From the NCBI RefSeq assembly GCF_002105155.1, contig NW_019029027.1:124001-188000 (forward strand): 64,000 bases of DNA. The letters are read 5' to 3'. Below, one piece after another: positions 30,906 through 60,023 of the stretch. The stretch's first letter is position 1, and every line of letters begins with the position of its first letter. The notes below the pieces were generated by a model. It made no database searches, was not told the origin of the DNA, and worked only from the letters and a program-made list of their open reading frames with translations. Made by a program: the position numbers and the translations under genes. The DNA is from Lobosporangium transversale (Eukaryota; Mortierellomycota; Mortierellomycetes; Mortierellales; Mortierellaceae).

Positions 30906-31376
30906 TCCCATTGTAAATTGACGCAAAAAAAAAAAAAAAAAAAAAAGCAAAAACCGAAAAAAGAAAGAAAAGAAAAAGAAAAAGAAAAAGAAAAGCACGG
31001 TTACAAAATCAAAAAGCTTTAAAAACATCATCTGGTGTGTGTCATTCAAAACTACATATTATTCCATTCTCTTGTACAAAAGCCCTCACAAAGCTCCTCC
31101 GTTTTTCTCTTTAATCTCTTGACATACTGAACAACTCCCAGTAGGACACTTGGTTCGCTCGGTCGAGTCATTCAATCCAACCGTCCCTTCATTTTTGTCT
31201 CCGCTTTTTGTCTCCTTGAAAAAGATCCTTTTCTCTGCGAAGCAAAAAAAAAAAAAATAAAAAAAAACATCATCTCGCACATCAAACCTACGCTGTTCCC
31301 CCCCCTCCTTTTTTTTTTTTTCTTTTCTTTTTTTCTTTGCTTTCAGCTATACATTCCACACGATCCTGCATCTACT
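27723..31376. other. Long intergenic region upstream of the kinase gene
   Basis: About 3.6 kb without a supported gene. It contains many A/T runs (28917-28940, 29205-29226, 29350-29376, 29580-29601, 30793-30809, 30925-30946) and, towards the kinase, pyrimidine-rich microsatellites. The short ORFs here are low-complexity translations. It probably holds the promoter and 5' UTR of the kinase gene. Confidence 0.5.
29921..31050. repeat. Pyrimidine-rich microsatellite cluster
   Basis: On the plus strand: CTCTG units at about 29941-29962, TTC units about 30073-30098, TTTGC units about 30209-30236, CT dinucleotides about 30381-30412, TTCC units about 30443-30467 and TTTC units about 30873-30906. All are C/T on the same strand, leading to the kinase start at 31377, so they may lie in a transcribed 5' leader. 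Confidence 0.75.
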
Positions 31377-36115: not shown

Positions 36116-36873
36116 TTAACCTCTGTGAGGCCCCAGGGCGCTCAGACGCTCAAAAGATAGCTCTTCGGGAAGCTCCTCACCAAAATGTCCGTACAACTTC
36201 TGAGCAAAGAGAGCGACAATCTCAGGTAGACGGAGGTTATCAATTCGAGTAGCCTCTTGCGCCTTACCATGGGCCGCATCACGAGCTTGCTCCATCAGAT
36301 GCTGTCCAGACTGGTCGTCGAGACGCATAAATCCTTGCAACTCATGAGGGGCATTCTGCCAGCCTCCAACGTGAAGAGAGACCCAGGCGCGAGGGCGCGA
36401 TTGTGTGGGCATTGATTCTCTCTGGATCTCTACAGTGCTAGAGGTGAATTCAGACACTTCCACCTTTGCTCCGGTGTTGGGATCAATGCCGGCTTCGATA
36501 GGTAACGAAGGCAAGGTATTGATGTCAAAGACATTCTTCTTAATGACTGTCGAGCTCGAAGAAGAACCAGCACCTCCAGTACCGGCGGTAGCACCTCCAG
36601 CACGGGTCAGAGTTTCGTACTGGGCCTGAGAAAGCACCTTAGAGTCCATGGTGGAGCCTCCTTCCTGGAAGAGAGTCCTCTCGCTGACTGTGCTGGCGAC
36701 AGTGTCATCGTGAGTTGTAGTGATTTTCTGAGTAGTCGACTGAACGCTACCATCCACGATTATTTGTTGCTGATGAGCGGTAACCTTCGAAACCTCAAAG
36801 TCCTCCAGAATCTCCTCAACCTCTTCAAGTTCTTCAATGGATTCATAGGTTCTGATCTGATACATCCATCGAT
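36116..36873 (-). other. Giant gene exon 31: unique C-terminal region
   Basis: Starts with the same entry motif as the modules (DRWMYQIRTYESIEELEEVE) but lacks the KETSWFRR signature and the WGR-like core. Instead it has a Gly/Ser-rich linker (GGATAGTGGAGSSSSS) and a C-terminal region RAWVSLHVGGWQNAPHELQG then FMRLDDQSGQHLMEQARDAA and LPEIVALFAQKLYGHFGEEL. No family recognised. It may be a capping or targeting domain. Confidence 0.75.
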
Positions 36874-39800
36874 CTATCGAAACATAGTATAGTAATAAAT
36901 ATTATTAGTGATCAGAAAAACTATACCCAAAATGAATATTTTCATGTGAACTGTGCCAAATTCAACCTACCACTGTGCTGAGTCTGGCGTTGAGACCACT
37001 CCAATCCGAACCACTGTTTGAAGATGAGATAGAACGAAGCCTTGGCGTCCTCGATCGTGGCATGGGGTCCCTTCAACTGGTAGTCCTTCTCACCCCAACG
37101 GATGTAGATGTAGTAAACCTTAGCCTTGCTGTCATAGATCAGTTGGATAATATGGATCACACCACTGCTCTTGTCTACAAGAACCGAGTCGTAGACTTCA
37201 TCATCATAATAGACGTAAGAAGTCTTGGCAATGGGGCAGAGTTCATCTACTTTAGCCTTGCGAGTAGTAAGGACTTGGAAAGTACGCTTCCAGACGCCAC
37301 CGACCTGAGTCAAGGCTCCAGTAGCAGCAGTCGCAGCTTCGGAAGGAATGCGACGGAACCACGAAGTCTCCTTCGAGACAGCAGGTTGAGCAACAACACC
37401 GGTTTGCTGAATTGTGATGATCTCCTTGGTAATCTCCTCTTCATCAAGGACGGGAACATCCTCCTTCTGGGCGGTTGTCGTGGTGGTCGTAGTCGTAGTC
37501 GTAGTCGTAGTCTGGGCTTCGATGGCATTGTCTTTCGTAACCTTGGCTTCCTGCTCGCGCACAATGGTTACCTGAGTCTCAGTTTCATCCACCACCTGTT
37601 CAATAACCTCAGTTTCTTCAATGGTCTCATACTCTGTCTTCACATAGATGAATCGACCTATAGAAGCATGCAGGATACAGTTAGTCAGAAATGAACTCAC
37701 CCAATAGTGTCAGTCCCCTGAAAACTTGAAGAAAATTAATCAGTGTTTGATATTAAAACTTACCAGAACTGGCGGTCTCACGCTCCTTCCAGTCAACTTC
37801 GAACTGTACTCTGTATGTGATCTGGAAGGCCTCCTTGGCTTCTTCAACTGTCCTATAAGGTCCATCCATCTTGTATTCAGTTTCACTCCAGCGGTAGTAG
37901 ACATAGTAGACCTTTTCATCGCTGTCAAAGAGCAGTTGAGTGACATATTTCTTGCCAGTGTCCTTTTCAATCAAGACAGCATCATAGACATCTCTCTCGT
38001 CGTAATAGACGAACGAATGCTTGGCAATAGGAGCAACTGCGTCGACATGAGCCTTACGAATAGTCAATACCTCAACGGTTCTCTTCAAAACTCCATCAAC
38101 CCTATGGAGGGCACCAGCAGCGGCGTCTCCAGCAGTGGTGGCAACAACATTAGCGGCGTCTCCAGCAGTGGTGGCAACAACATTAGCTGCGCCACCAACG
38201 CTAGAGATGACCCGACGGAACCAGGAAGTCTCCTTGGGCACAACGGGCTGGCTGATCTTACCACTCTCCTGAACGATAACAACTTCCTTAGTGAGACCAG
38301 CATCAACACCAGCCACAGCTGTGTGATCAACTACTGTTTCAATTGTTGCCTCGATGGTAACACCTCCATTGTCCTGGTCAGTACGCGCAGCTAGAACCTC
38401 CTTGGTCTGGGTTTGATTATCAACTTCAACAACCGTGGTCTGAACTTGCTCGATAACTTTACCGCCCTCGACAACGATAGTCTCATTCTCCTTACGAATA
38501 GCGTTGTCCTCAATGACAACAACCTGTTCCAGACTGATCATCTCCCTGGCTACAGTTTCCTCCACGACCTCTTCGACCTCCTCAACTTCCTCGATGGTCT
38601 CATGGACTGTGGTTTGGTAGACCCAGCGTTCTATAACCATCAAAGAGAGAATTGTTAGATCAACTTCCTCTATAAACAGTATCAGTCAAATAAATTAAAA
38701 ACTACAATCTATACCTGTGACAGCTGTCTCGCGCTCCTTCCATTCGATGCCGAACTTCTGAGTGTAGCTGATCTTGAAGGCTTCCTTGGCACTCTCTACA
38801 TCCTCATGTGGTCCATCAAGTGTGTACTCAGTCTCGCTCCAGCGGTAGTAGACATAGAACACCTCCTTCTTAGTGTCATACAAGAGCTGCGTAACGTACT
38901 TCTTGCCAGTGCTCTTCTCAATAAAGACACAGTCATATACTTCATCTTCATCATAGTATACGAATGAGTGCTTGGCAATAGGAGCAACTTCATCAACCTT
39001 GGCCTTACGGATGGTCAGGACTTGAACTGTGCGCTTCCAGACACCGTCAACCTTCTGCAAAGCGCCATATGCAACACCTTCAGCTCCAGTGGCAACATCC
39101 TGGGCAACTTGACCAACACCATGAGCAGCGCTCTCTGCAGCACCAGCGACAGCTGATCCAACTCCCCTGATTGTGTCTTCACCTGATTTGACAACACGGC
39201 GGAACCATGAAGCCTTCTTGGGGACGGCTGGCTGAGTGACAACTCCTTTTTCAATCTTGGTGGCAACCTCGATGACCTTCTTCTCTCCAGCTACAGTCAC
39301 TTCCTTCTCTTCTACTTCATCCTTGGGTTCAATGACTGTCTCCTTCTGCTCGTGGTGCTCAAGGATGATCTCCTCTCCTTGGTTGATGGTCTTGGTTTCC
39401 TCTTTGATAATGACATCACCAGTGGTACTCTTTGTTTCTTCAGTGACAACAGTGGTAACTTCTGTCTCTTCGATTACTTCCTCAATCACCTCGGTTTCTT
39501 CGACTACCTCATGTGTGATTGTTTGGTAGGTGAAGCGTTCTATAATAGAGTGAACATTCAGTAGATAGATTAGTAAACATCATTCATATATAGCCTCACA
39601 GTACATAGTAGAGATGGTATAGATCCTTACCAGAAACAGCTGTTTCGCGCTCAGTCCAAGTGATGCCAAAGATGGTTACATAGGTGACCTTGAAGGCTTC
39701 CTTGGCTTCCGCAATTGTCTTGTGGGGTCCATCAAGCTTGTAGTCGGTCTCACTCCAGCGGTAGTAGACATAGTACACATTCTCCTTAGTGTCATACAAA

Positions 39801-42800
39801 AGCTGGGTGACGTGCTTCTTGCCAGTGTCCTTCTCAACCAACACAGAATCATATACTTCATCATCATAGTACACGATAGAGTGTTCGGCAATGGGTGCAG
39901 CCTCATCGACCTTACCCTTGCGAGTGACTATGACCTCGACAGATCTCTTCCAAACGCCATCGACCTTCTCCAATGCTCCACTAATGGCTGCTTCAGCTCC
40001 AGAGGCAATGCGACGGAACCATGAGGTCTCCTTAGAGATGGCAGGTTGAGGGACCTCTCCCACATGGGTAACAGTGGCAACTGCCTTGATGACCTTCTTG
40101 TCCTCATGAGTGATGACCTCGGCCTTATCGGTCTGTTCAACCTTAATCTCACCAGTAACGGTCTCTGTGGTGGTAGTGGTAGTCTCCTCCTGTACTGGGA
40201 TTCCTTCAATGACTGCTTGTCTCTCCTCCACGACAGTGACCTCGACATCCTTCTCCTCCACGATCTCTTCGACCTCTTCGACTTCCTCATAGGTCTCATA
40301 GATCTGGTGGACATAGGTGAAGCGATCTATTACACACATCCAAAGACATAACAGTCAGTATCTTTGACACTCTCTGGCCCTATTCTTTTAGCACAAACAA
40401 ATACTGAGCAACTACTCCTTATCCTTACCTGAAACAGCATTCTCACGGTCCTTCCATTCGATGCCGAACTTCTGAGTGTAGGTGACCTTGAAGGCTTCCT
40501 TGGCACGATCAACATCTTCGTGAGGTCCATCGAGTGTGTACTCGGTCTCGTTCCAGCGGTAGTAGACATAGTAGACCTTCTGCTTAGAGTCGAACAGCAG
40601 CTGAATGACATACTTCTTGTCTGTACCATTCTCAGTCAAGACACAGTCATACACCTCGTCATCATAGTAGACAAATGAGTGCTTGGCAATGGGAGCAACT
40701 TCGTCAACCTTGGCCTTACGAGTGGTCAAAACCTGGACTGTGCGTTTCAAGACACCGTCAACCTTCTGGAAAGCGCCATATGCAACACCTCCAATTGTGA
40801 GAATAGCACCCTTTGTGACAGCCTCACCAGCTGGAAGAATACGACGGAGCCAGGAAGTCTCTTTAGGAACAGCAGGCTGAGTGACGATACAAGTCTCCCT
40901 GACGCGAGTGGTCTCTTGGACTTCATCTTTCTTCGTCTGCTCGACTACAGGGGCTTGCTCCTCAACTTGAATCGTAACAGTTTTCTCAGTGATGGTGGTC
41001 TCTGTGACATTATTGTCATCCTTCTTCTCGGCAATAATGACACCCTCCTTGGCCTCCTCACTTGCAGGAATATCCTTCGCTTCTGGAGCTGTAGCAATAG
41101 CCTCCTTGCTAATGATGATCTTCTCGACAGTGGTTTGTTCCTCTAGAGTTTCAACATCTGTAGGGACTTGTATCTCTTCTACAGTCGTGACAGTCTCACT
41201 AATGATGGTCGTTGTTGTGGTGTCTTTGTCTTTCACTTGTTCAGGGATGATAGTTCCTTCCTTGGTCTCCACATCTGCTGGGACCTCCTTCACATCCGAG
41301 CCTGAAGCAATAGTCTTCTTGATGGGAACAGTCTTATCGACAGTATCGACCTCCTCTTCATCGACAGTGCTTTGTTCTTCTGTAGTTTCCACAACTGTAG
41401 TGACTTGCTCTTGTTCTTTAATCGTAATAGTATCCTCAGTGATGATGGTCGTCGTGGTGTCTTTGTCTTTCACTTGTTCAAGGACGATAGTTCCTTCCTT
41501 GGTCTCCACATCTGCAGGAACATCCTTCACATCCGAACCTGAAGCAGTGGTCTTCTTGATGGGAACTGTCTTATCGACAGTATCGACCTCCTCCTCATCG
41601 ACAGTGATTTGTACTTCTGAAGTTTCCACAACTGTAGTGACTTGCTCCTTTTCTACAATCATAACAGTCTCATCAGTGATGATGGTTGTTGTGGTGTCTT
41701 TGTCTTTATCTTGTTCAGGGACGATGACCTCTTCCTTGACCTCCACAACTGCAGGGACCTCCTTCACATCTGGAACTGTAGCAGTGGTCTCCTTCCTGGG
41801 AACAGTCGTATCGACAGTATCGACCTCCTCCTCATAGACAGTGGTTTGCTCTTCTGTAGTTTCAATAACTGTAGGAACTTGCTCCTTTTCTACAACCGTA
41901 ACAGTCTTATCAATGATGGTGGTTGTTGGGGTGTCTTTGTCTTTATCTTGTTCAGGGACGATAGTTCCTTCCTTGGTCTCCACATCTGCAGGAACATCCT
42001 TCACATCTGAGCCTGAAGCAGTAGTCTTCTTGATGGGAACAGTCGTATCGACAGTATCGACCTCCTCCTCATCGACAGTGATTTGTACTTCTGAAGTTTC
42101 CACAACTGTAGTGACTTGCTCCTTTTCTACAACCGTAACAGTCTTATCAATGATGGTGGTTGTTGGGGTGTCTTTGTCTTTATCTTGTTCAGGGATGATA
42201 GTTCCTTCCTTGGTCTCCACAACTGCAGGAACATCCTTCACATCTGAGCCTGAAGCAATAGTCTTCTTGATGGGAACAGTCGTATCGACAGTATCGACAG
42301 TATCGACCTCCTCATCGATAGTGGTTTGTTTTTCTTGGCTTTCCACATCTGTAGTGACTTGATGATCTTCTACAACCGTAACAGTTTCATCAGTGATAGT
42401 GGCTGTTGGGGTGTCTTTGTCTTTCACTTGTTCAGGGACGATAGTTCCTTCCTTGGTCTCCACAACTGCAGGAGCATCCTTCACATCCGAACCTGTAGCA
42501 GTGGTCTCCTTGATCTCATCATCTTCCTTCGTTTTATCAATGACAGTGACTTCGTTGATCTTGCTTCCTCCAATCACAGGGGTCTTATCCTCTGTTTTAT
42601 GGATCGTAACAGTCTCAGTGATCGTGGTCGTTGTGGTGTCTTTGTCATTCTCAACAGGAACGATGTCCTTCTTGATCTCCTCCTTTGTCTCAGTCACAAC
42701 AACGTCCGTGATAACTTGTTCAACAACTTGCTCAGAGGTAGGAATTGTAATATCGGGCTTAGCCTCGATCGTCTTTACAACGTGATCTGATCCCTTCAAA

Positions 42801-45800
42801 ACAACGTGTTGGTCCTGCTCACGAATGATGATGGTTTCAGCGGTGGTTTCATCCACGACTTCCTCAACCTCTTCAATTTCCTCGATGGTCTCATGGACTG
42901 TGGTTTGGTAGACCCAGCGTTCTACAACCATCAAAGAGAGAATTGTTAGATCAACTTCCTCTATAAACAGTATCAGTCAAATAAATTAAAAACTACAATC
43001 TATACCTGTGACAGCTGTCTCGCGCTCCTTCCATTCGATGCCGAACTTCTGAGTGTAGCTGATCTTGAAGGCTTCCTTGGCACTCTCTACATCCTCATGT
43101 GGTCCATCAAGTGTGTACTCAGTCTCGCTCCAGCGGTAGTAGACATAGAACACCTCCTTCTTAGTGTCATACAAGAGCTGCGTAACGTACTTCTTGCCAG
43201 TGCTCTTCTCAATAAAGACACAGTCATATACTTCATCTTCATCATAGTATACGAATGAGTGCTTGGCAATAGGAGCAACTTCATCAACCTTGGCCTTACG
43301 GATGGTCAGGACTTGAACTGTGCGCTTCCAGACACCGTCAACCTTCTGCAAAGCGCCATATGCAACACCTTCAGCTCCAGTGGCAACATCCTGGGCAACT
43401 TGACCAACACCATGAGCAGCGCTCTCTGCAGCACCAGCGACAGCTGATCCAACTCCCCTGATTGTGTCTTCACCTGATTTGACAACACGGCGGAACCATG
43501 AAGCCTTCTTGGGGACGGCTGGCTGAGTGACAACTCCTTTTTCAATCTTGGTGGCAACCTCGATGACCTTCTTCTCTCCAGCTACAGTCACTTCCTTCTC
43601 TTCTACTTCATCCTTGGGTTCAATGACTGTCTCCTTCTGCTCGTGGTGCTCAAGGATGATCTCCTCTCCTTGGTTGATGGTCTTGGTTTCCTCTTTGATA
43701 ATGACATCACCAGTGGTACTCTTTGTTTCTTCAGTGACAACAGTGGTAACTTCTGTCTCTTCGATTACTTCCTCAATCACCTCGGTTTCTTCGACTACCT
43801 CATGTGTGATTGTTTGGTAGGTGAAGCGTTCTATAATAGAGTGAACATTCAGTAGATAGATTAGTAAACATCATTCATATATAGCCTCACAGTACATAGT
43901 AGAGATGGTATAGATCCTTACCAGAAACAGCTGTTTCGCGCTCAGTCCAAGTGATGCCAAAGATGGTTACATAGGTGACCTTGAAGGCTTCCTTGGCTTC
44001 CGCAATTGTCTTGTGGGGTCCATCAAGCTTGTAGTCGGTCTCACTCCAGCGGTAGTAGACATAGTACACATTCTCCTTAGTGTCATACAAAAGCTGGGTG
44101 ACGTGCTTCTTGCCAGTGTCCTTCTCAACCAACACAGAATCATATACTTCATCATCATAGTACACGAGAGAGTGTTCGGCAATGGGTGCAGCCTCATCGA
44201 CCTTACCCTTGCGAGTGACTATGACCTCGACAGATTTCTTCCAAACGCCATCAACCTTCTCCAATGCTCCACTAATGGCTGTTCTAGCTCCAGAGCCAAT
44301 GCGACGGAACCATGAGGTCTCCTTAGAGATGGCTGCCTTAGGAGCAGTTCCAGTCTCAATGTGAACAACCTTCTTGGTGACCTCCTTCTCTTCGTCATCG
44401 ACTGCGATTTTGGTCTCAACTGTAGTAACATCCTCGACAATAACCTCCGTGGTCTTATCGATTGTGGTAGTTATCTTGGTGACATTGGCATCCTCAATCT
44501 TAATCTGCTGCTCGCGAGAAAGGATCAAATCAACTTCGGTCTGTTCAACAGTCTCCTCAACTTCCTCAACTTCCTCGATGGTCTCATGGACTGTGGTTTG
44601 GTAGACCCAGCGTTCTATAACCATCAAAGAGAGAATTGTTAGATCAACTTCCTCTATAAACAGTATCAGTCAAATAAATTAAAAACTACAATCTATACCT
44701 GTGACAGCTGTCTCGCGCTCCTTCCATTCGATGCCGAACTTCTGAGTGTAGCTGATCTTGAAGGCTTCCTTGGCACTCTCTACATCCTCATGTGGTCCAT
44801 CAAGCGTGTACTCAGTCTCGCTCCAGCGGTAGTAGACATAGAACACCTCCTTCTTAGTGTCATACAAGAGCTGTGTAACGTACTTCTTGCCAGTGCTCTT
44901 CTCAATAAAGACACAGTCATATACTTCATCTTCATCATAGTATACGAATGAGTGCTTGGCAATAGGAGCAACTTCATCAACCTTGGCCTTACGGATGGTC
45001 AGGACTTGAACTGTGCGCTTCCAGACACCATCAACCTTCTGCAAAGCGCCATATGCAACACCTCCAGCTCCAGTGGCAACATCCCGGGCGACATGACCAA
45101 GGCCATGAGTAGCGCTCTCTGCAGCACCAGCGACAGCTGATCCAACTCCCCTGATTGTGTCTTCACCTGATTTGACAACACGGCGGAACCATGAAGCCTT
45201 CTTGGAGACGGCTGGCTGAGTGACGACTCCCTTCTCCTTCTTCTCCTTCGTAATGATGGTCTTGATCTCTTTCTCTCCTTCTACATCCACTTCAACGATG
45301 ATAGGAGTTTTCTCAACATATTCGATACAGATCTGTGGCTCTGTGATGACAGTAATAGTCTCAGTCTTGATGACTGTGTCATTTCCGGTGCCCACATCTT
45401 CAGTGCGTTGAACAACGACCTCTTTCTCGTTAATGATCTCCTCAATTGTTTCGGTTTCTTCAATTGTTTCGTAGGTGATCGTCTCAACCGTGTAGCGCTC
45501 TATTTTAAGGCACATTTGGCACAAAAGCAGTTAGTACTTGGCAACCTTTCAATAGCATAACGATTTAAATACTTTGGACACTTCCTTATCTATACATACC
45601 GGAAGTACTGATCTGGCGCTGTGACCATTCTAGTCCGAACCACTCCTTGTAAATGAGATAGAAGCTAGCCTTGGCATCCTCGATTGTCTTGTGGGGTCCA
45701 TCAAGCTTGTAGTCCTTTTCACCCCAACGGTTATACACATAGTAGGATGAGCTCTCGCTGTCGAAAATAAGTTGGATGTGATGGGTCAAGCGGCTGTTCT

Positions 45801-48800
45801 TGTCAACAAGAATCGAATCATAGACTTCGACATCATCGAAATAGACATATGAAGTCTTGGCAATGGGTGCAACTTCATCGACCTTGGCCTTGCGAGTGGT
45901 CAACACCTGGACAGATCTCTTCCAAACACCATCGACCTTCTCCAATGCTCCACCAGCGGCGCGACGGAACCATGAGGTCTCCTTAGAGATGGCAGGTTGT
46001 GGGACCTCTCCCACATGGGTAACAGTGGCAACTGCCTTGATGATCTTCTTGTCCTCATGAGTGATGACCTCGGCCTTATCAGTCTGCACAACCTTAATCT
46101 CACCAGTAACGGTCTCTGTGGTGGTGGTAATAGTCTCCTCCTGTACTGGGATTCCTTCAATGACTGCTTGTCTCTCCTCCACGACAGTGACCTCGACATC
46201 CTTCTCCTCCACGATCTCTTCGACCTCTTCGACTTCCTCATAGGTCTCATAGATCTGGTGGACATAGGTGAAGCGATCTATTACACACATCCAAAGACAT
46301 AACAGTCAGTATCTTTGACACTCTCTGGCCCTATTCTTTTAGCACAAACAAATACTGAGCAACTACTCCTTATCCTTACCTGAAACAGCATTCTCACGGT
46401 CCTTCCATTCGATGCCGAACTTCTGAGTGTAGGTGACCTTGAAGGCTTCCTTGGCACGATCAACATCTTCGTGAGGTCCATCGAGTGTGTACTCGGTCTC
46501 GTTCCAGCGGTAGTAGACATAGTAGACCTTCTGCTTAGAGTCGAACAGCAGCTGAATGACATACTTCTTGTCTGTACCATTCTCAGTCAAGACACAGTCA
46601 TACACCTCGTCATCATAGTAGACAAATGAGTGCTTGGCAATGGGAGCAACTTCGTCAACCTTGGCCTTACGAGTGGTCAAAACCTGGACTGTGCGTTTCA
46701 AGACACCGTCAACCTTCTGGAAAGCGCCATATGCAACACCTCCAATTGTGAGAATAGCACCCTTTGTGACAGCCTCACCAGCTGGAAGAATACGACGGAG
46801 CCAGGAAGTCTCTTTAGGAACAGCAGGCTGAGTGACGATACAAGTCTCCCTGACGCGAGTGGTCTCTTGGACTTCATCTTTCTTCGTCTGCTCGACTACA
46901 GGGGCTTGCTCCTCAACTTGAATCGTAACAGTTTTCTCAGTGATGGTGGTCTCTGTGACATTATTGTCATCCTTCTTCTCGGCAATAATGACACCCTCCT
47001 TGGCCTCCTCACTTGCAGGAATATCCTTCGCTTCTGGAGCTGTAGCAATAGCCTCCTTGCTAATGATGATCTTCTCGACAGTGGTTTGTTCCTCTAGAGT
47101 TTCAACATCTGTAGGGACTTGTATCTCTTCTACAGTCGTGACAGTCTCACTAATGATGGTCGTTGTTGTGGTGTCTTTGTCTTTCACTTGTTCAGGGATG
47201 ATAGTTCCTTCCTTGGTCTCCACATCTGCTGGGACCTCCTTCACATCCGAGCCTGAAGCAATAGTCTTCTTGATGGGAACAGTCTTATCGACAGTATCGA
47301 CCTCCTCTTCATCGACAGTGCTTTGTTCTTCTGTAGTTTCCACAACTGTAGTGACTTGCTCTTGTTCTTTAATCGTAATAGTATCCTCAGTGATGATGGT
47401 CGTCGTGGTGTCTTTGTCTTTCACTTGTTCAAGGACGATAGTTCCTTCCTTGGTCTCCACATCTGCAGGAACATCCTTCACATCCGAACCTGAAGCAGTG
47501 GTCTTCTTGATGGGAACTGTCTTATCGACAGTATCGACCTCCTCCTCATCGACAGTGATTTGTACTTCTGAAGTTTCCACAACTGTAGTGACTTGCTCCT
47601 TTTCTACAATCATAACAGTCTCATCAGTGATGATGGTTGTTGTGGTGTCTTTGTCTTTATCTTGTTCAGGGACGATGACCTCTTCCTTGACCTCCACAAC
47701 TGCAGGGACCTCCTTCACATCTGGAACTGTAGCAGTGGTCTCCTTCCTGGGAACAGTCGTATCGACAGTATCGACCTCCTCCTCATAGACAGTGGTTTGC
47801 TCTTCTGTAGTTTCAATAACTGTAGGAACTTGCTCCTTTTCTACAACCGTAACAGTCTTATCAATGATGGTGGTTGTTGGGGTGTCTTTGTCTTTATCTT
47901 GTTCAAGGACGATAGTTCCTTCCTTGGTCTCCACATCTGCAGGAACATCCTTCACATCTGAGCCTGAAGCAGTGGTCTTCTTGATGGGAACAGTCGTATC
48001 GACAGTATCGACCTCCTCTTCATTGATAGTGGTTTGTTTTTCTTGGCTTTCCACATCTGTAGGGACTTGATGATCTTCCACAACCGTAACAGTTTCATCA
48101 GTGATAGTGGCTGTTGGGGTGTCTTTGTCTTTCACTTGTTCAGGGACGATAGTTCCTTCCTTGGTCTCCACAACTGCAGGAGCATCCTTCACATCCGAAC
48201 CTGTAGCAGTGGTCTCCTTGATCTCATCATCTTCCTTCGTTTTATCAATGACAGTGACTTCGTTGATCTTGCTTCCTCCAATCACAGGGGTCTTATCCTC
48301 TGTTTTATGGATCGTAACAGTCTCAGTGATCGTGGTCGTTGTGGTGTCTTTGTCATTCTCAACAGGAACGATGTCCTTCTTGATCTCCTCCTTTGTCTCA
48401 GTCACAACAACGTCCGTGATAACTTGTTCAACAACTTGCTCAGAGGTAGGAATTGTAATATCGGGCTTAGCCTCGATCGTCTTTACAACGTGATCTGATC
48501 CCTTCAAAACAACGTGTTGGTCCTGCTCACGAATGATGATGGTTTCAGCGGTGGTTTCATCCACGACTTCCTCAACCTCTTCAATTTCCTCGATGGTCTC
48601 ATGGACTGTGGTTTGGTAGACCCAGCGTTCTACAACCATCAAAGAGAGAATTGTTAGATCAACTTCCTCTATAAACAGTATCAGTCAAATAAATTAAAAA
48701 CTACAATCTATACCTGTGACAGCTGTCTCGCGCTCCTTCCATTCGATGCCGAACTTCTGAGTGTAGCTGATCTTGAAGGCTTCCTTGGCACTCTCTACAT

Positions 48801-51800
48801 CCTCATGTGGTCCATCAAGTGTGTACTCAGTCTCGCTCCAGCGGTAGTAGACATAGAACACCTCCTTCTTAGTGTCATACAAGAGCTGCGTAACGTACTT
48901 CTTGCCAGTGCTCTTCTCAATAAAGACACAGTCATATACTTCATCTTCATCATAGTATACGAATGAGTGCTTGGCAATAGGAGCAACTTCATCAACCTTG
49001 GCCTTACGGATGGTCAGGACTTGAACTGTGCGCTTCCAGACACCGTCAACCTTCTGCAAAGCGCCATATGCAACACCTTCAGCTCCAGTGGCAACATCCT
49101 GGGCAACTTGACCAACACCATGAGCAGCGCTCTCTGCAGCACCAGCGACAGCTGATCCAACTCCCCTGATTGTGTCTTCACCTGATTTGACAACACGGCG
49201 GAACCATGAAGCCTTCTTGGGGACGGCTGGCTGAGTGACAACTCCTTTTTCAATCTTGGTGGCAACCTCGATGACCTTCTTCTCTCCAGCTACAGTCACT
49301 TCCTTCTCTTCTACTTCATCCTTGGGTTCAATGACTGTCTCCTTCTGCTCGTGGTGCTCAAGGATGATCTCCTCTCCTTGGTTGATGGTCTTGGTTTCCT
49401 CTTTGATAATGACATCACCAGTGGTACTCTTTGTTTCTTCAGTGACAACAGTGGTAACTTCTGTCTCTTCGATTACTTCCTCAATCACCTCGGTTTCTTC
49501 GACTACCTCATGTGTGATTGTTTGGTAGGTGAAGCGTTCTATAATAGAGTGAACATTCAGTAGATAGATTAGTAAACATCATTCATATATAGCCTCACAG
49601 TACATAGTAGAGATGGTATAGATCCTTACCAGAAACAGCTGTTTCGCGCTCAGTCCAAGTGATGCCAAAGATGGTTACATAGGTGACCTTGAAGGCTTCC
49701 TTGGCTTCCGCAATTGTCTTGTGGGGTCCATCAAGCTTGTAGTCGGTCTCACTCCAGCGGTAGTAGACATAGTACACATTCTCCTTAGTGTCATACAAAA
49801 GCTGGGTGACGTGCTTCTTGCCAGTGTCCTTCTCAACCAACACAGAATCATATACTTCATCATCATAGTACACGATAGAGTGTTCGGCAATGGGTGCAGC
49901 CTCATCGACCTTACCCTTGCGAGTGACTATGACCTCGACAGATCTCTTCCAAACGCCATCGACCTTCTCCAATGCTCCACTAATGGCTGCTTCAGCTCCA
50001 GAGGCAATGCGACGGAACCATGAGGTCTCCTTAGAGATGGCAGGTTGAGGGACCTCTCCCACATGGGTAACAGTGGCAACTGCCTTGATGACCTTCTTGT
50101 CCTCATGAGTGATGACCTCGGCCTTATCGGTCTGTTCAACCTTAATCTCACCAGTAACGGTCTCTGTGGTGGTAGTGGTAGTCTCCTCCTGTACTGGGAT
50201 TCCTTCAATGACTGCTTGTCTCTCCTCCACGACAGTGACCTCGACATCCTTCTCCTCCACGATCTCTTCGACCTCTTCGACTTCCTCATAGGTCTCATAG
50301 ATCTGGTGGACATAGGTGAAGCGATCTATTACACACATCCAAAGACATAACAGTCAGTATCTTTGACACTCTCTGGCCCTATTCTTTTAGCACAAACAAA
50401 TACTGAGCAACTACTCCTTATCCTTACCTGAAACAGCATTCTCACGGTCCTTCCATTCGATGCCGAACTTCTGAGTGTAGGTGACCTTGAAGGCTTCCTT
50501 GGCACGATCAACATCTTCGTGAGGTCCATCGAGTGTGTACTCGGTCTCGTTCCAGCGGTAGTAGACATAGTAGACCTTCTGCTTAGAGTCGAACAGCAGC
50601 TGAATGACATACTTCTTGTCTGTACCATTCTCAGTCAAGACACAGTCATACACCTCGTCATCATAGTAGACAAATGAGTGCTTGGCAATGGGAGCAACTT
50701 CGTCAACCTTGGCCTTACGAGTGGTCAAAACCTGGACTGTGCGTTTCAAGACACCGTCAACCTTCTGGAAAGCGCCATATGCAACACCTCCAATTGTGAG
50801 AATAGCACCCTTTGTGACAGCCTCACCAGCTGGAAGAATACGACGGAACCAGGAAGTCTCCTTTGGGACAGCAGGCTGGCTAACGGTTCCAGTCTTCCTG
50901 GTAACCACACTCTGCTTGACATCCTTGTCCTGAACAACGGCTACATCAGGGCTCTTCTCTTTCTCCTTTTCCTTTTCAAAGATAATCTCATTTGAAGAGC
51001 TTTCGACAGCAGTACCACTTTCGTGAGTAATGGTCTCCTGGGTTTTCTCGGTATGGACACTGATATCCTTGATTTCTCTCTGTTCTCCGCAGGTAATGAT
51101 AATCTCAGCTTCCTTTTCATCCACAATCTCTTCGATTTCCTCGATTTCTTCGACGGTTTCGTATTCTTGGATGATGTAAGTATAGCGTTCTATTAATTGC
51201 AATAGAGCAATATACTGTTAGCATGTCTTAATAACGATTAATTAAGAACCCAAAAGTTCATTTGAATTGGATTTACCAGAAGTAACATTTTCGCGCTCAG
51301 ACCAGGTAATGCCAAAGGTGCTCTTATAGATGATCTTGAAGGCTTCCTTGGCTTCCTCAATTGTCTTGTGGGGTCCATCAAGCTTGTAGTCGGTCTCACT
51401 CCAGCGGTAGTAGACATAGTACACATTCTCCTTAGTGTCATACAAGAGCTGGGTGACGTGCTTCTTACCAGTGTCCTTCTCAACCAACACAGAATCATAT
51501 ACTTCATCATCATAGTACACGATAGAGTGTTCGGCAATGGGTGCAACTTCATCGGCCTTAGCCTTGCGAGTGGTCAGCACCTGGACAGATCTCTTCCAAA
51601 CACCATCGACCTTCTCCAAGGCTCCACTAGCAACTCCCTCGGCTCCAGAGGCAATGCGACGGAACCATGAGGTCTCCTTTGTGACTGCAGGCTCTGCAAT
51701 GACTCCTGTCTTGATAGTTTTAACCTCTCTGCGATCCTTAACATCATCAGCAACAGCAATGCTTGTGGCCTCTTCTACTATTTCCTCAATCGTAACACTC

Positions 51801-54800
51801 TGAGTTTGCTCGTCATTCCTGGAGACAGTAGTTTTTCTACTCTCTACTTGGTCTCCTGTTACAATCGCAACATCCTTGACTGTCTCAACAACGACATCAT
51901 TCTGAGTATTGACGATTGTCGTTTCAACCTTGGTAGTCTCATCGTCAACTTTGATAACACGATTTTGAGCCATGATGGTGGCAACCTCCTCTTCATCAAT
52001 GTCTTCCTCAATCTCTTCGATTGTCTCGTAGACTTCGTAGACTTGTGTTTGGTAAGTCCATTTATCTAATAAAGCAATAGAGTCGTTATTAGTTAAAAAA
52101 ATGCAAAGATATTCGGTTTTTTTTTCTCCTTGTCATTAGAATTAAACATACCATTGACGCAAGTCTCGCGATCTTTCCATTCAACACCAAATTTATCGTG
52201 GTAGGTAATCTGGTATGTCTTCTTAGCCTCCTCGATGGTATTGATAGGTTCGCTGAGACGATAGTGTGTCTCATCCCAGCGATAGTAGATGTAGTAGACG
52301 TGTTGCTCGGAGTTATAAATAAGTTGTACTACATGAGTGGCACCAGTGCTCTTCTCTGTAACGACAGCATTGTAGACATCCTCATCGAAGTAGACAACGG
52401 AAGTCTTAGCAATAGGACAGACTTCGTCAACTGCAGCCTTACGAGTGGTAACAACATTTGTCTTGCGCTTCCAGATGCCATTCACTTGCAAAAGGACACC
52501 GACAACAGCTCCAGCCGCAGTACTGCCAGGTGTAGGGGAGATTCTACGGAACCATGAAGTCTCCTTGCTGACTGCAGGCTTGGTGATAGTTAGAGTTGTG
52601 TTGCTAATTTCCTTAACTGTGGATGTCTCCTTTGTACCCTTATCCTCCACAGTTGTCTCGACCTCGTGGGCTACAATGACATTGCTACTTGTAGTGATAT
52701 CTTTGACCTCCTCAGTAGCAATAGTAGTGCTGGACTCGACATGCTCGTCGTCAACAACCTGGATGATATCTTCCTCAAAGTTGATTTCATGATGGACAAC
52801 ATCCCACTCAGTGGTGGTGGTAGTTTTGCGAGTATCCCAGGAAATACCAAAGGTCTCAACATATTTGTTCTTGAATTGAGACTTTGCGATTTCAACAGTC
52901 TCGTAAGGTCCATCAAGGGTGTAATCAGACTCACCCCAACCAAGATAGACATAGTAAGTCTTGGTGACAGTGTTATAGAGCAGCTGAGTAGTGTAAATGA
53001 TGCCAGTAGCACGCTGTGTAAGGATAGTATGGTAAACTTCGCTATCCTTGTAAACCTCAACCTCATCGGCCATAGGGTTAACAGTGTCAATACGAGGGTT
53101 TGAATCAGATCTTGGGAGGCTACGAGTTGCTGAGGTATCAGCAGTGCCCTTCTTGGTGACAGTTCCGGTGACAGTTCCGGCGCTATCGCTTTCAATCACA
53201 ATAGTGTCGTATTCAAAGTCAACAGTAGTCCATTCCTCACCAGATGAAATGACAGCCTCCCTCTCGGTCCACTCAATGCCAATCTTGGATGAGAAGATCT
53301 CCTGGAACTCCCTTGTTGCGATCTCTGCACTATCATAAGGGCCTTCGAGCTGACCTTCGGTGGATCCCCATTGAACGTAGATGTAGTAGACGTTCTTGGT
53401 GTTATCGGACAAGAGCTGCATCTCATAGTCGACGCCAGTACCAGCTTCAACTAAATGGCAAGCCCAGATGGTGCCGTCAGTCTCCAGGACAGTGGCATTC
53501 TGGATAGGGCTTTGTCTGTGGACGCGGACAATGCGACGGGTTCTGGTGATTGTGGTCGTCGTGATAGTGTATCGAGTGAGATATTGGATATAGCGGGTGT
53601 AGACAGTCTTGTACTCAGTGACTTCACGCTCAATCATATTGACATCGTACGACTGGTTGACCTCCAAGGTGGTGAGCCAAGTAAACTTGACAGCATCATA
53701 TGCCCAGACAGTCTTGCTGATAGAGCGCTCGACGAGAACAGCCTTATTATCTACAAAGTCGACAACTTGATTAGAGTTGGAGATCAAAGACAAGGAACCA
53801 TCCTCTGAGAACTGCCATTGCTGGCGCGAAGCATCTGTCTGCTTTTTGGCCAAGACCAGAGAGCCATTGCTGTCGACGGTTAAATAAAGACCAGTGAAGC
53901 GGTTGATAATATAAGAGTCCTCAAGCTTCCAGAGTTGGAGATCAACCAAAGCATGGCGTTCGTTTGAACCGAATCGCTTCTGGACAGTGGTGTGGATCGT
54001 CGCTCCTTCTGCTCCGCGTTCGAGCAATTGAGTAGTAGAGATGGAAGCAACCTTGTTACCGACAACCAAGTAAAACCAAGTCTCCTTGGGAGCGACAAGG
54101 GATTGCTCAGTCTTGGCATATTCAATAACTTCATTAGTACCAGCGGATGAACGCAAGACAATCTCTTCAAACTCTTCATAGAACTCCAAGTCTTCCTGTT
54201 TTTCAACCTCAAGAAGGACAACCTCAGTAAAGATGAGCCATGAGAAGACGACCTCAAATACAGACCAGGTGATGGCAACAGAGCGGTTGACAAGAACGAC
54301 ATGTCCATCACGAATATTTAGAGCCAAGTGAGTATGTGTGATAGGGGAGATGCGACCACCTTCGATTGTCCACTTGATTGAGTTCTTGGGGAGAGCCTGG
54401 ATGAGGCGGGCATTCTCCTTAATATCACTCTCAATAGTCAAGGCAAGACCAGTGCGTTTATTGATCAAATATCCATCCTTGAGGGTCCAAAGCTGAATGT
54501 CCAGAAGAGCATGCTGATTGGACGACGCAGCAGTTGTCTGAGGGTGGACCGTAGCATAGGCACCTACGCGCATGTGATTGATAGAGTAGCCATGCTCGAT
54601 ATCAATAACATACCCGTTGGAAGCACGAAGGAAGAAATAGGCGACCTGCGAGAACTTGTCCAGCTTGCGGATTTGGGCTTTTTCCTTCTTAAGGTAAGTG
54701 ATTTCGCTCTCACTGATGACATCCATTTGCACCTCTTCTTCCTCTTCCTCCTCGACCTGCTCCGTGGTAGAGAGTTCCAAGGTCAACCATGAGAAGTGAA

Positions 54801-56964
54801 CCTCGCCGAATGCCCCTAATGATAAAAATTGTAATATTATAATTAAGAGCTCGTTCACGACTCGAATATATATAAAAATAAAGAGTTGTTGTTAAGAAAC
54901 TTACAGGTCTGAAGAATATCTCCTTGGCGAACCTTGCGGATGAAGGCGTGTGAGCCTTGATGACCATAGGCCAAGAACAGAGCGAACTCCTTGTGAGCAG
55001 CCAGGCGAATGACACCGTTCTCGACGACCCAGCGCTGAGTCGAAGCGTTAGTACGACTCGATTGGATGAGCTTGGCGTTGCCTTCGACTATGTGGGTATT
55101 TAGTTAAGAGATGATTAAATTAGAAGTGTTAGAGTCGAGTTTGCAAGAAAATCAACAATGCGCTCTAAATGATACTATGCGATATAACCTTCTGTTTCAC
55201 TAGCTTACCCTTATCAACAGACAGAACAAGACCTGAGCGACGATTGATGATGTAGCCATCCTGGTATCTCCAGAGCTGAAGTTCAAGAAGAGCATGGGAC
55301 TTCTTACCAGACTTGAGCCTCTGATGACCCAATTGAATAAGAGTGCCGGATTTCAAATGGCTGATGCCACGGCCATGCTGGATTTCAAGGACGAGGTCAC
55401 TGATACCGGACTTGAGATAGAACCAGCAATCAGTTGGTACGCTCTTGTGCTCCTGCACACGTGCGAGGTGGCTGGTCTCGTATTCCTTAAGGAGCTCAAC
55501 GTCATCTTCAGTAGAAACAGTGCGTTCCTCAGTCAGCCATTGGAACTGGACGGACTCGAAGGACCCTAATAGTTGTCAAAGAGATGAAAACAAATGATGT
55601 TATTATTAGATATGGGGCTGCTGTTTTATTTGACAGAAGCGACACGTGCATATTTGCGCTTATGCAATGTAAACTTACAACGCTGGTCGAGGTTCTTCTT
55701 ATCCTTGCGTTCATTGAGCGAAATACGAGCTCCATCGCGAGTACCATCGCCGTCAACGTCCAAGACAAGATCAGGGTTACTCTTCAAATGAATGAAACCG
55801 TTGGAGACACCCCACTGTTGGTTAGCATTGTCCTCAGTCTTGCGGGTCCATTGAATAAGACGGGTGCCTGGCTTCAAAGCGCCTTCACTGGCATCTAGAA
55901 CCAAACCAGTACGACGGTTGATAATGAAGCCGTTCTCGAAGCGCCAAAGTTGCAATTCCAAGAGGGCGTGTCTCTTTGCAGAGGCAAACAGTTTTTGGTT
56001 GTTGAGTTCCAGGTATGCGCCAGGCTTGGTGTGGTCGCGGAAAAAGCCGTGCTCGACATCAAGAACAAGGGCAGAAGCTCTGGACTTGATGTAGAACCAT
56101 TTTTGAACGGGGAAATCAGTGTGGACGAGAATCTTGGCTTCCTCGAGACCCTCGTCAAAAGTCGATGAGCGGGTCATGACGCGAGATTGCTTGAGCCATG
56201 ATGTCTGAGCAAGCTCGAGAGTCCCTGCGGATCAAGAAATGAATTTAAAAAAAAAAAAAAAAAAATCAAAGTTCGCTTGCAATCCTTCTCTATCTTCTTC
56301 ATTACTCCACCCTTTCTTTGATTCACACACTTACAGGTATTAGCAGAGGCCAAAGATGACTTGAGTTCAACCAATTGGACACGGGAACCCTCCTTGTTAG
56401 ATTCGACATTGACAACGAACTTGGGCTTGTGTACCAATTGAATATTGCCATCCGTAACATTCCATAGCTGATTATGACTACCTTCCGCCTACAAAGATGA
56501 GATAAGATATTAACAATCTATAAACGGAAAGCAAGTGATGCAACTATCAAAGGAAAGTGTATTGGCAGCATTTTGAGGGAAGCAGATTTTACCTCAGTCA
56601 AAGCCTTGTGCTGTTGGATCAGCTTAACACCGACAACGGCAGTGCGGCCATAGATGTCAAAAACAAAGCCGGTTCTGCGGTTGATAATGTAACCATCTTC
56701 GTATCTCCAGAGCTGACGCTCCACTAGGCTCTTATCTGCATCCTCCAATGGGCGCTGCTTCTTCATAGAAATGTAGGCACCGACATCAGTAGCTGAAGTG
56801 ATCCAGCCAGCTTCCAGATCCATAACAAGGCCAGAGGCACTAGACTTGATGTAAAACCAGTCATCCTTCTGAATGGGGACCACTTCTTTTACGATGGTTG
56901 TCTCTGATATCCGTAAAGAAAATAAATAAAATTAATACGTAAAATAAAACCAACCATGGACTTT

Positions 56965-56999
<35 letters not shown>

Positions 57000-59900
57000 T
57001 GCTTTTTACCAGTCCTAGTAATAGTACGGTCGTATTTGAGCCATTCAAAGATGGCAGGTACGAACTCCCCTATAAAAAAAAAAAAAAAAAAAGTGAACCA
57101 AAGGTAAGTAAATATATTTCGTTCTATACTAACGTTAGTTTTATAGAGTTAATAGCTTACACTGCTGGTCAAGGTTATTCTGTGACTTGGGACGCTGGAG
57201 TGAGAGACGTGCACCTGTCTTGGAGCCATCACCCTCAATATCAATAGCAAAGTTAGGCTTGCCTTGGACGATCAAGCTACCATTCACAGCTTCCCAGCGC
57301 TGATGGTGGCCCTCCTATTTTTAGTGGAGTATGAAATGATGAATAATGAGCATAAACTCTTTTTCTTTCTTTTTTCTTTTTTTTTTTTCTTTTGGGAAAA
57401 CTGTTTTGTTTGCTTTACCTTTCCTTCCTTACGGACGCCTTGCATGAGACGAGCGCCATAACGGACAACACCCTGTTTGCAATCAAGAACATACTGAGAT
57501 CTTCTGTTGATAAAATAGCCGTTGTCATAGCGCCACAACTGCGACTCGATCTTGGAGTGATCATCGCCAGTGGACTCGGTGATCTGGGTGTTCATGTTGA
57601 CAAGGACATTGGGAGACATAGGATCGGAGAGCAGGCCCTGCTCAATATCAACGACATGACCAGATGATGATGACCGGATGTAGAACCAACCATTGGTAGG
57701 AGGGACCTTGACGGGAGCCAAAGTGACAGGGGCTGGAACTAATGACCATTTCGAATGCATAACCATAATGGGTTAGATTCTGATGTATGTATTGTATCTG
57801 ACTAAATGTTTCCCAATCACTTACTCTCACGGTCTGCAATACTCTCAGCGGTAGATGGGCTACCAAGCCATGTGAATCGAGCTTCCTCAAGAATCCCTAC
57901 AAGTTTTTTTTTTTTTTTTTATTTTTATTTTTATTTTTTGAAAGTTGATTTTAATATTAGTACAAGACGCATTCTTTTAATCAACATAATGAAGACATGT
58001 CATAACGTTGTAGTCAGGCTTACATTGTTGATCGGAGTTTGAAGTAGAAGGTTTGCGCTCCCCGATCGCAATCTTGGCGCCATCTTTGGTTCCGTCGCCA
58101 TCAATATCAAGGACCAGACGTGAATTGTAGACGTTGGCAATGAAGCCATTCTCGTAAAACCAGTGTTGGTTGCGAGCATCCTATATATAGGACCGGATAC
58201 AACAGGTATTGTTGATTAGAAACCATAAACATAGAAGTGATTGTCATTGTTAAAATGTATTTCTCGCAGAGTCACTTGCCTTGCCAGCCTTGCGGTGCCA
58301 TTGAATGACTCTTGCAGAAAGTTTGATGGCGCCTATAAACGAGGGAGATAAAGATACAAGGAATCAGTCAATAAACAGTGTCTTGATTACTCACTCGTTA
58401 ACCAGCAACGTTGTATGTATGAAGAGCTACGTTTAATATTTAAAAATAAAAAGTAAAAAATAAAAAATACTAAAAAAAAAAAAAAAAAAAAAAAAACATA
58501 CCGCCCTGAATATCAAGAACAAGACCGGTACGTCGATTGATCAAGAAACCAGCTTCATAGCGCCAGAGTTGAAGTTCCAAGAGGGCATGGCGATTTTCTC
58601 CATTGTCGATCTTCTGGTGGTTCATTTCAGCGCGAGCACCAGCCTTCATTGGATCTGTGAAGATACCATGCTCAATATCAACGACGAGACCAGAGGCAGC
58701 TGACTTGATGTAGAACCAGTTAGTGGGGAAGTTGTCAGGACGAACAGAGATAGACTCGGCTCTAGAGGGTGTGGGTGAGGCTGGGCGGTTGTTACCACCG
58801 GCGGGGAATGACCCTAATTTTATTTTAATGTTTCAATGGTCAATAGAAATAAAAAAGATCAGTTTTTCCTTCTCTGCCATTGGTCGGTTGGGTTTATGAA
58901 TTCAGCAGTACAAAAAGAGGCTTTACATTTCTGTTTCTCGTTATTGGGCTTCTTCTCTTGAAGAGTGATCTTGGTGCCATCACGGGTGGCATCGCCGTCG
59001 AGGGTGATGACAAGCTTAGGATTGCTTGCCAAAGTCAGAACACCATCCTCGTTCAACCACTGCTGACCAGCAGCATCCTATTAGGATTCAATAGAGTGTA
59101 CAGTCAAAGATGATCAGTAATGGATACATACATAAAAGCATTAAGCACGATTTTTTTTTTTTTTTTAACCAATTGCGTCTTGGTGATGGCCAGACTGTGG
59201 CTACATTACCTTGCCAGTCTTGCGGACATTCTGGATGATACGCGAGTTGGCACGGAGAGCACCTGGATTATGCAACAGAAAAACGAAGAGATAGAGATTA
59301 ACAAAAGTACATGGTCAACAATGGATTCATCTAGGCCTTGACGTGGTTCAGAAGCATGCAACAAACACATTTTGACCCTTGACCCCATCTCCCTTTGGAA
59401 AAATCTTGAGAAAAAAAAAAATCTACTGACAAACTAATCATTGACAAACTAGACTTTACTGATCCTCGATTGCTTTCCAAAGGAAAGTTTTTTTTTTTTT
59501 TTTTTTTATATATATATCTAAACTTCTATAGTGTTTTAAGGCACCATAATAGAGATTTATATAATGATGGAGAGAGTATTCCGATTCGATGCTGACGGAG
59601 TAAGAGCATCTGGCGGCTCCTCCAATTGTTGAACCTAGTATTATAATAGGACAACCCCTTACCCCTTACCCCTGTCCCGCCCCCATCCCATTTCGCCTCC
59701 CGTCTCCAATTTCTCCAATAAAATTAAAAAACTGTTTATGTATAAAAAAAAAAAAAAAAAAAAAAAGACTTGCCTCCTTGGACGTCCAAGACATAGCCAG
59801 TTCGGACATTGACGAGATAACCCTCCTCGGCCCTCCAGAGCTGCAATTCCAGCTGAGGGGTGACTTCAGCGTTCTTGGTAGCTTTGGAATGTGCGAGCTC

Positions 59901-60023
59901 GATACGGGCACCGGCCTTGGTAGGATCTTTCAAGAACCCGCTCTCAAGATCAAGAACGAGGCCTGCAATGCCTGACTGAATGAAAAAACTTCCTTTGGGG
60001 AATGACACATTGCTAGAAGCCAT
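36116..60023 (-). CDS. Giant modular protein: eight beta-trefoil-like modules plus 17 WGR-like modules
   Basis: One 24-kb gene of 31 exons; the joined frame is 20,442 bases, about 6,813 residues (roughly 750 kDa). Every junction has a GT-AG or GC-AG pair and preserves phase. No signal peptide (starts MASSNVSFPKGSFFIQSG), so cytosolic by inference. Residues 1 to about 1,400 hold eight ricin-B-type beta-trefoil-like modules; about 1,500 to 6,560 hold 17 WGR-like modules separated by acidic Thr/Val/Glu stalks; the last 252 residues are unique. WGR domains are known from PARPs and bacterial proteins, where they bind nucleic acid ends or proteins; trefoils bind glycans or proteins, so a multivalent scaffold is a fair guess but not shown. 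Alternative: several separate genes. Against that, each exon begins at an acceptor, lacks its own promoter-sized spacer (introns about 90-110 bases in the array) and continues the previous exon's phase. Exon coordinates are given in the four sub-entries. Sister modules are nearly identical, so assembly of the array should be regarded with care. Confidence 0.85.
38590..40870. repeat. Duplicated block copy 1 (offset 9,999 bases)
   Basis: Near-identical to about 48589-50869: exon 28, exon 27, the introns, and the 3' end of exon 26 match exon 20, exon 19 and the 3' end of exon 18. Introns match as well as exons. Identity ends near 40850, inside the KETSW signature region. Confidence 0.85.
40010..44330. 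repeat. Duplicated block A copy 1
   Basis: Near-identical to about 45960-50040. The offset is 5,951 bases up to roughly 41990 and 5,708 bases beyond it; the 243-base difference is one extra stalk repeat in exon 26 compared with exon 21. Covers part of exon 27, all of 26 and 25, and the 3' half of 24. Confidence 0.85.
41090..42540 (-). repeat. Stalk repeats of exon 26 (about seven 79-residue units)
   Basis: Units of the form KKTTASGSDVKDVPADVETK, EGTIVPEQDKDKDTPTTTII, DKTVTVVEKEQVTTVVETSE, VQITVDEEEVDTVDTTVPI, 79 residues each, with the last unit degenerate (KEAIATAPEAKDIPASEEAK). The sister exon 21 has one fewer unit. Thr/Val/Glu/Asp-rich, probably extended and unstructured or weakly beta. 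Confidence 0.8.
45960..50040. repeat. Duplicated block A copy 2
   Basis: Partner of 40010-44330; covers the 5' half of exon 22, all of 21 and 20, and the 3' half of 19. Overlaps the 9,999-offset block, so the array was built by successive unequal exchanges. Confidence 0.85.
48589..50869. repeat. Duplicated block copy 2 (offset 9,999 bases)
   Basis: Partner of 38590-40870. The encoded residues of exons 19 and 20 are the same as those of 27 and 28. Confidence 0.85.
52152..54815 (-). other. Giant gene exon 16: trefoil-like modules 7-8, coiled stalk, WGR-like 1-3
   Basis: A single 2,664-base exon bridging the two halves of the protein. It starts WAFGEVHFSWLTLEL, then an acidic run, trefoil-like module 7 (YFFLRASNGYVIDIEHG, NQHALLDIQLWTLKDGYLIN), linker WSVFEVVFSWLIFTE, module 8 (TWFYLVVGNKVASIS, RHALVDLQLWKLEDSYIINR, QQWQFSEDGSLSLIS), linker AVKFTWLTTLEVNQ, a Thr/Arg-rich segment (TRYTITTTTITRTRR), then three WGR-like domains at about 53460-53240 (YYIYVQWGSTEGQLEGPY), 53070-52810 (YYVYLGWGESDYTLDGPY) and 52420-52160 (YYIYYRWDETHYRLSEP). 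The first KETSWFRR signature appears just before the third. Domain borders are approximate. Confidence 0.8.
58181..58279 (-). other. GC-AG intron 5 of the giant gene
   Basis: The donor is GCAAGT after the AAG of HRKAGK and the acceptor is ATATATAG before GATGCTCGC. The equivalent intron of module 1 (59209-59078) has a normal GTAATG donor at the same codon, so the GC form is a derived change. Confidence 0.75.
59263..59773 (-). other. GC-AG intron 1 of the giant gene
   Basis: The donor is GCAAGT after GGA-G; the acceptor is AATCCAG. Use of GC is supported because joining at this site gives VLDVQG-GALRANSRIIQNV, parallel to VLDIQG-GAIKLSARVIQW of the next module. Confidence 0.75.

Follow-up and report, generated by a model that had tools for sequence, protein, structure and literature searches.

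A giant trefoil–WGR gene of Lobosporangium transversale and its possible role as a Gellin-like cytosolic scaffold

The window analysed here, 64,000 nucleotides of the Lobosporangium transversale assembly GCF_002105155.1 (contig NW_019029027.1, positions 124,001 to 188,000), raises the question whether its positions 36116..60023 hold one minus-strand gene that joins two domain families, ricin-B-type beta-trefoils and WGR-like modules, in a single giant protein, and what such a protein might do. The original prediction, made from the sequence alone, proposed 31 exons with an uninterrupted frame of about 6,813 codons and consistent splice phases at 30 junctions. Our spliced model agrees closely: from an ATG at 60023 to a stop at 36116 (minus strand), it has 31 exons, 20,436 nucleotides and 6,811 amino acids without internal stops, and the phases are compatible at all 30 junctions. 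The predicted product has a mass of 766.9 kDa and an isoelectric point of 4.75. As to its role, we tentatively place first, while holding it short of an even chance, that this single Mortierellaceae gene may encode a scaffold for gelation of the cytosol, similar to the Gellins but with a WGR tail that varies.

The gene model was built from the genomic sequence (the window lies in contig C72 of the 42.7-Mb genome). Each of exons 13 to 30 begins and ends in phase 1, and the introns comprise 28 of the GT-AG and two of the GC-AG type. The GC-AG introns follow exons 1 and 5 (window positions 59773 and 58279), at places that correspond in trefoils 1 and 2, and adjoin exons 2 and 5, of 53 bases each; gene finders may skip such short exons beside GC-AG introns. 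Three automatic models without GC donors (34, 33 and 32 exons; 6,371, 6,864 and 6,803 amino acids) misplaced exons 1 and 5 and were rejected as they stood; the third served as the start of the final model, in which these two exons were set by hand. When the junctions were compared with 13 chosen homologues out of the 43 found, 27 of the 30 were aligned gap-free in at least seven of the 13 (at WGR junctions the match may stem from any repeat copy). Junction 10 was covered by one homologue, and junctions 6 and 7, both in variable linkers, by none.

That these exons belong together is seen most directly in exon 16 (52152..54815): its 2,664 open bases carry trefoils 7 and 8 as well as WGR modules 1 to 3, so the two domain families are joined without any splicing argument. 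The homologues P0001, P0003 and P0004 have a trefoil with WGR modules directly after it, and P0042 from Mortierella claussenii (2,663 amino acids, not annotated 'partial') runs continuously from trefoil 1 by way of five WGR modules to the same C-terminus. Only 15 methionines occur after residue 1043, which leaves little room for separate starts. Several adjacent genes joined by hand would be the alternative, given that exact repeats can mislead and that homologue support is scant or absent at three junctions; against the content of exon 16, the 27 spanned junctions, the continuity of P0042 and the few methionines, we consider it extremely improbable. The trefoil–WGR region is a single gene, as originally claimed. 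The gene model and both domain calls are confirmed as real. Chance does not account for the gene: with residues 1-1400 as query, 23 proteins (P0010 to P0032) align over 93-100% of the length and are 63-75% identical; P0009, from Lobosporangium transversale, is 99% identical over 94% of the same query.

Hidden Markov models (HMMs) place eight trefoils ahead of 17 WGR-like modules, the order and numbers predicted originally; all are encoded on the minus strand. Trefoil 1 (58949..59990, amino acids 12-144) extends over exons 1-3 and trefoil 2 (58052..58721, amino acids 183-316) over exons 4-6, each with one of the GC-AG introns. They are followed by trefoil 3 (57186..57688, amino acids 365-497), trefoil 4 (56360..56862, amino acids 540-672), trefoil 5 (55704..56102, amino acids 722-854), trefoil 6 (54936..55428, amino acids 909-1032) and, in exon 16, trefoils 7 (54292..54639, amino acids 1102-1217) and 8 (53743..54081, amino acids 1288-1400). 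Residues 1-525 match two Pfam families well above their cut-offs: PF00652 (Ricin_B_lectin; 9.9e-25, 87.6 bits, cut-off 29) and PF14200 (RicinB_lectin_2; 2.4e-22, 79.9 bits, cut-off 25.6). The predicted structure of trefoil 5 is of low confidence (predicted local distance difference test score, pLDDT, 57.5), and its structural matches are mainly R-type lectins. By profile and predicted structure, the R-type trefoil fold that had been called for these modules is confirmed. The NCBIfam scan yielded nothing beyond a lectin model with a score far under the cut-off, and the Rfam scan no match. Among 29 proteins, including that of the window, the best cross-protein match of a trefoil is in 232 of 232 cases the trefoil of equal rank. 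The cases are not independent, as several species are present more than once, but the eight trefoils are clearly old and distinct.

The 17 WGR-like modules lie at 53242..53508 (module 1), 52801..53076, 52153..52416, 51278..51541, 50429..50692 (module 5), 49631..49894, 48715..48981, 46381..46644, 45601..45867, 44700..44966 (module 10), 43923..44186, 43007..43273, 40430..40693, 39632..39895, 38716..38982 (module 15), 37765..38031 and 36972..37235. Module 1 reaches the Pfam WGR family (PF05406; cut-off 22) in one scan (25.2 bits) and falls just below it in another (21.8 bits), and homologue P0003 matches at 27.1 bits; no match to this family was found in the other five module exons scanned (17-20 and 30). 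The remaining modules are recognized by HMM, and modules 2 and 3 are also covered by a structure model. A profile built from ten of the 17 window modules, with near-copies left out, finds the WGR domains of PARP2, PARP3 and PARP1, with E-values from 1e-7 (PARP2) to 3.4e-4. In the model of modules 1 to 3, 287 of 457 residues have a pLDDT of at least 70 (154, mostly in linkers, are below 50), and all 13 Foldseek matches with E at or below 0.001 are PARP WGR domains. The originally proposed fold is thus confirmed, by profile and by predicted structure, as that of PARP-type WGR domains.

One residue sets these modules apart. At the third position of the W-G-R motif, arginine is found in none of 144 modules of the window and its homologues (one is gapped there; the count leaves out matches no longer than 61 residues, and many modules are near-copies within one protein). 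R140 in the WGR motif of PARP2 is required for DNA binding (PMC9023293; PMC7608914). A PARP-like gene of the same genome (locus L055, 2203-4619, minus strand, contig C41) keeps the motif intact and serves as a control for the missing arginine. It is also the genome's strongest Pfam WGR match, with a BRCT-like start and a catalytic part recognizable by eye. The tail modules are WGR folds that lack the arginine through which PARP2 attaches to DNA, and its absence from every counted module makes a PARP-like role on DNA unlikely. A nuclear scaffold linked to DNA or poly(ADP-ribose), with the modules used as in PARPs, has in its favour that the 13 Foldseek matches within that E limit are all PARP WGR domains; against the missing arginine, and its retention in the genome's own PARP-like gene, we judge it very improbable. 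Here the PARP-type WGR fold serves as a repeated module that lacks its DNA-binding arginine. Segments of the form SWFRR...VDGVWKR precede 14 modules and score above 95% of shuffles in six of the 14 (four of the six are near-identical copies), which is only suggestive of membrane-binding amphipathic helices.

The tail also contains two arrays of 237-base (79-amino-acid) tandem repeats, one acidic and threonine-rich inside exon 21 (47070..48222, 4.9 copies), the other inside exon 26 (41124..42514, 5.8 copies), and is closed by 115 conserved C-terminal residues (36119..36463), for which Pfam has no match and which are identical at 89 of 115 aligned positions in P0006, 88 of 106 in P0007 and 90 of 112 in P0042. 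Exons 19-20, intron included, are identical to exons 27-28 along 1,612 bases, and exons 20-21 differ from exons 25-26 by six substitutions as well as 243 gap positions, which is close to the length of one 237-base unit. The giant gene therefore seems to grow by exact copying of blocks of two exons and their intron, although the copy number may contain an assembly error. Modules 5 to 17 of the window (module 9 being a tie) are closest to copies within the same protein, and so are modules 3 to 13 of P0040 from Mortierella alpina; in P0042 and P0031, by contrast, the later modules resemble those of other proteins more than their own copies, so the amplification is recent in some lineages only. 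WGR modules 1 and 2 are matched mostly by position (in the seven proteins printed). The WGR count varies accordingly: 17 in the window, 14 in a partial protein of Mortierella alpina (the last one cut), seven in a partial protein of Actinomortierella ambigua and five in M. claussenii. Repeated acidic low-complexity linkers and a copy number that varies by species would suit many bulk scaffolds, such as a septal-pore, organelle or lipid-body lattice, or a storage or spore protein, none of them involved in wound gelation; that eight different trefoils keep their order speaks for a specific task of each one, and such another structural role is in our view rather unlikely.

Three protein searches yielded 43 homologues in all. 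Eight trefoils followed by WGR modules are found in 28 of them (trefoil 1 is only partial in P0041 and P0043, and P0041 has an additional WGR module ahead of its trefoils), so the architecture recurs in related fungi, where the original prediction had suggested looking; the remaining homologues are fragments or have other architectures. Mortierellaceae are listed with 18 named genera, of which 12 have homologues; the other six may lack a genome in the database. Single-exon queries, with the best candidates scored, detected no second trefoil–WGR locus in the 42.7-Mb genome (a stray match on contig C42 has an E of 0.5). The architecture is conserved in Mortierellaceae and without description in the open-licence literature searched. 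The initial claim of novelty is partly right: no paper on the combination was found in that literature, but multi-trefoil proteins, the Gellins, have already been described from related fungi, and one of their domains is probably the closest solved trefoil by sequence.

A relation to Gellins is suggested by the PDB. The trefoil family profile finds entry 6lci first (4.8e-12), with the next trefoil at 3.6e-6; by structure 6lci is tied with many trefoils, and it is not among the 50 Foldseek matches listed for the trefoil 5 model. When 139 residues of 6lci are searched against the 42.7-Mb genome, all five matches fall on trefoils of this gene, three of them with E-values between 3.2e-8 and 2.1e-5 and the other two weak (0.06 and 0.12). 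The entry is titled 'Solution structure of mdaA-1 domain' and was released on 2020-11-25; from this title, the date and the nuclear magnetic resonance workers among the authors of the Gellin paper, we take it to be probably a Gellin domain. Nothing on mdaA or 6lci was found in the open-licence literature searched. In the work of Nguyen et al. (2021, in Current Biology), Gellins reportedly consist of ten trefoils, of which some unfold in flow and others bind membranes. To our knowledge, the arrest of bleeding from wounded hyphae has, among fungi with few septa, been worked out only for Mucorales. A review states that Mucorales have Gellins, which upon disturbance bring about gelation of the protoplasm, and that Gellins were not detected in Glomeromycotina (PMC12712441).

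How a Gellin-like scaffold might work in Mortierellaceae can be sketched from its parts. It would be a 767-kDa, acidic, multivalent protein, most likely cytosolic: the N-terminus has no obvious secretion signal by eye and there are only 17 cysteines in 6,811 residues, both in line with the cytosol. The head would consist of the eight positionally conserved R-type trefoils, and the long tail of a row of WGR-fold modules, multiplied in this lineage and set on charged linkers, with the conserved C-terminal stretch at its end. In hyphae with few septa the protein would stay soluble until wounding or flow, whereupon trefoils may unfold or associate while the tail contacts organelles or itself, so that protoplasm becomes a plug. 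A multivalent cytosolic scaffold fits this predicted anatomy. The analysis shows the gene, its domains and their conservation, the amplification of repeats and the loss of the WGR arginine; the cytosolic location of the protein, its relation to Gellins, the role in gelation and the binding partners of the tail are what we infer. As a candidate for wound clotting, the gene, single-copy in this genome and with homologues in those 12 of 18 genera, would be amenable to knock-out.

Modules like those of the giant protein are also found in other company. P0008 (Mortierella sp. AD094, not annotated 'partial') and P0005 are VIT-VWA proteins with one and two WGR modules, respectively, before the C-terminal tail. 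The two VIT-VWA genes of the present genome, both on contig C62, have no WGR module by profile; their frames (L060, 2364-5357, plus strand; L061, 2201-5287, minus strand) lie about 100 kb apart in opposite orientation and are alike over most of their length, with different low-complexity linkers. Predicted GTPase proteins (P0036 and P0037, partial) and predicted ARM-NACHT proteins (P0038, partial, and P0041) likewise carry trefoils or WGR modules of the giant's kind. P0036 and P0037 are 54% identical over most of their length, and the trefoil of P0038 shares 87% identity with the corresponding one of P0041 from Mortierella alpina, so some of these fusions may be real paralogues; the dull alternative is that they may be fused gene models. 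With PADLOC, 53 residues of P0037 match LeoBC (1.5e-11), and P0038 hits weaker models; we took both as generic P-loop matches. PADLOC found nothing in exon 16 or P0008.

These partners bear on another explanation, a giant cytosolic scaffold of lectin type for defence or sensing, in which trefoils 2 and 5 would bind sugars and modules would be exchanged with immune-type NTPase (nucleoside triphosphatase) proteins. In the alignment, the D-Q-W-N-Q set of the second subdomain, taken here as the sugar-ligand positions, is complete in trefoils 2 and 5 only, and homologous trefoils or WGR modules are present in the predicted ARM-NACHT, GTPase and VIT-VWA proteins. On the other side, the presumed ligand residues are gone from trefoils 6 to 8, no sign of secretion is seen by eye, and the NACHT and GTPase cases, three of the four annotated as partial, may be fused models; the explanation is unlikely, if still to be taken seriously. 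It is doubtful, too, that Mortierellaceae possess a separate clotting system in which one giant protein joins flow-reactive Gellin-type trefoils to WGR-fold cross-linkers, with modules swapped onto NACHT, GTPase and VIT-VWA proteins. If they do, WGR folds would have lost DNA binding and turned into cross-linkers whose copy number varies by species, and the clotting of hyphal wounds would be linked with intracellular immune-type switches.

Other ricin-B genes of the genome, on contigs C52 and C81, were rejected as relatives: the trefoil profile gives E of 0.014 and 0.084 on C81 and nothing on C52. Contig C52 holds an inverted pair of identical 203-residue ricin-B-like frames (L049, 3446-4054, minus strand; L050, 668-1276, plus strand) with a secretion signal by eye, as well as several relatives. 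Within the window, the neighbours of the giant gene with domain matches are ordinary chromosomal surroundings: an MRC1-like frame (16431-18014, plus strand), a PRP21-like frame (9101-9772, minus strand) and a Glyco_transf_49 frame (21859-22392, plus strand). The plus strand is strongly pyrimidine-rich between 30001 and 32000 (GC skew -0.43), a stretch with TC-rich microsatellites that lies just ahead of a protein kinase frame (31131-33200) and reaches into it, and tandem repeats of 12 to 189 bases occupy 1470-2410 inside a long minus-strand frame (1247-2617) in which Pfam finds no match.

Among known systems, the WGR domains of PARP1, PARP2 and PARP3 share the fold of the tail modules (template modelling score up to 0.76 to the target, in addition to the profile match), but the modules here lack the W-G-R arginine and occur in many copies, the stretch after the motif is four residues shorter than in PARP2, and, unlike in PARPs, no catalytic domain was found in the Pfam scan of the exons examined. 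The trefoils of R-type (ricin B) lectins resemble the first 525 residues by both Pfam families; here, however, there are eight in a row, apparently in the cytosol, and the presumed ligand residues are retained in some of them only. The VIT-VWA proteins P0005 and P0008 have the same WGR modules as the giant but no trefoils. With Gellins the protein has in common tandem related beta-trefoils, an origin in early-diverging fungi with few septa and, in the probable Gellin domain 6lci, its best sequence match in the PDB. It differs in having eight trefoils, as do 28 homologues, where Gellins are said to have ten, and in what follows them: a WGR tail (17 modules; five in P0042), charged linkers and a conserved C-terminus, features that Gellins are not known to have. 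We claim no membership of the Gellins; the best view of the giant protein is probably that of a Gellin-like multi-trefoil scaffold with a WGR tail.

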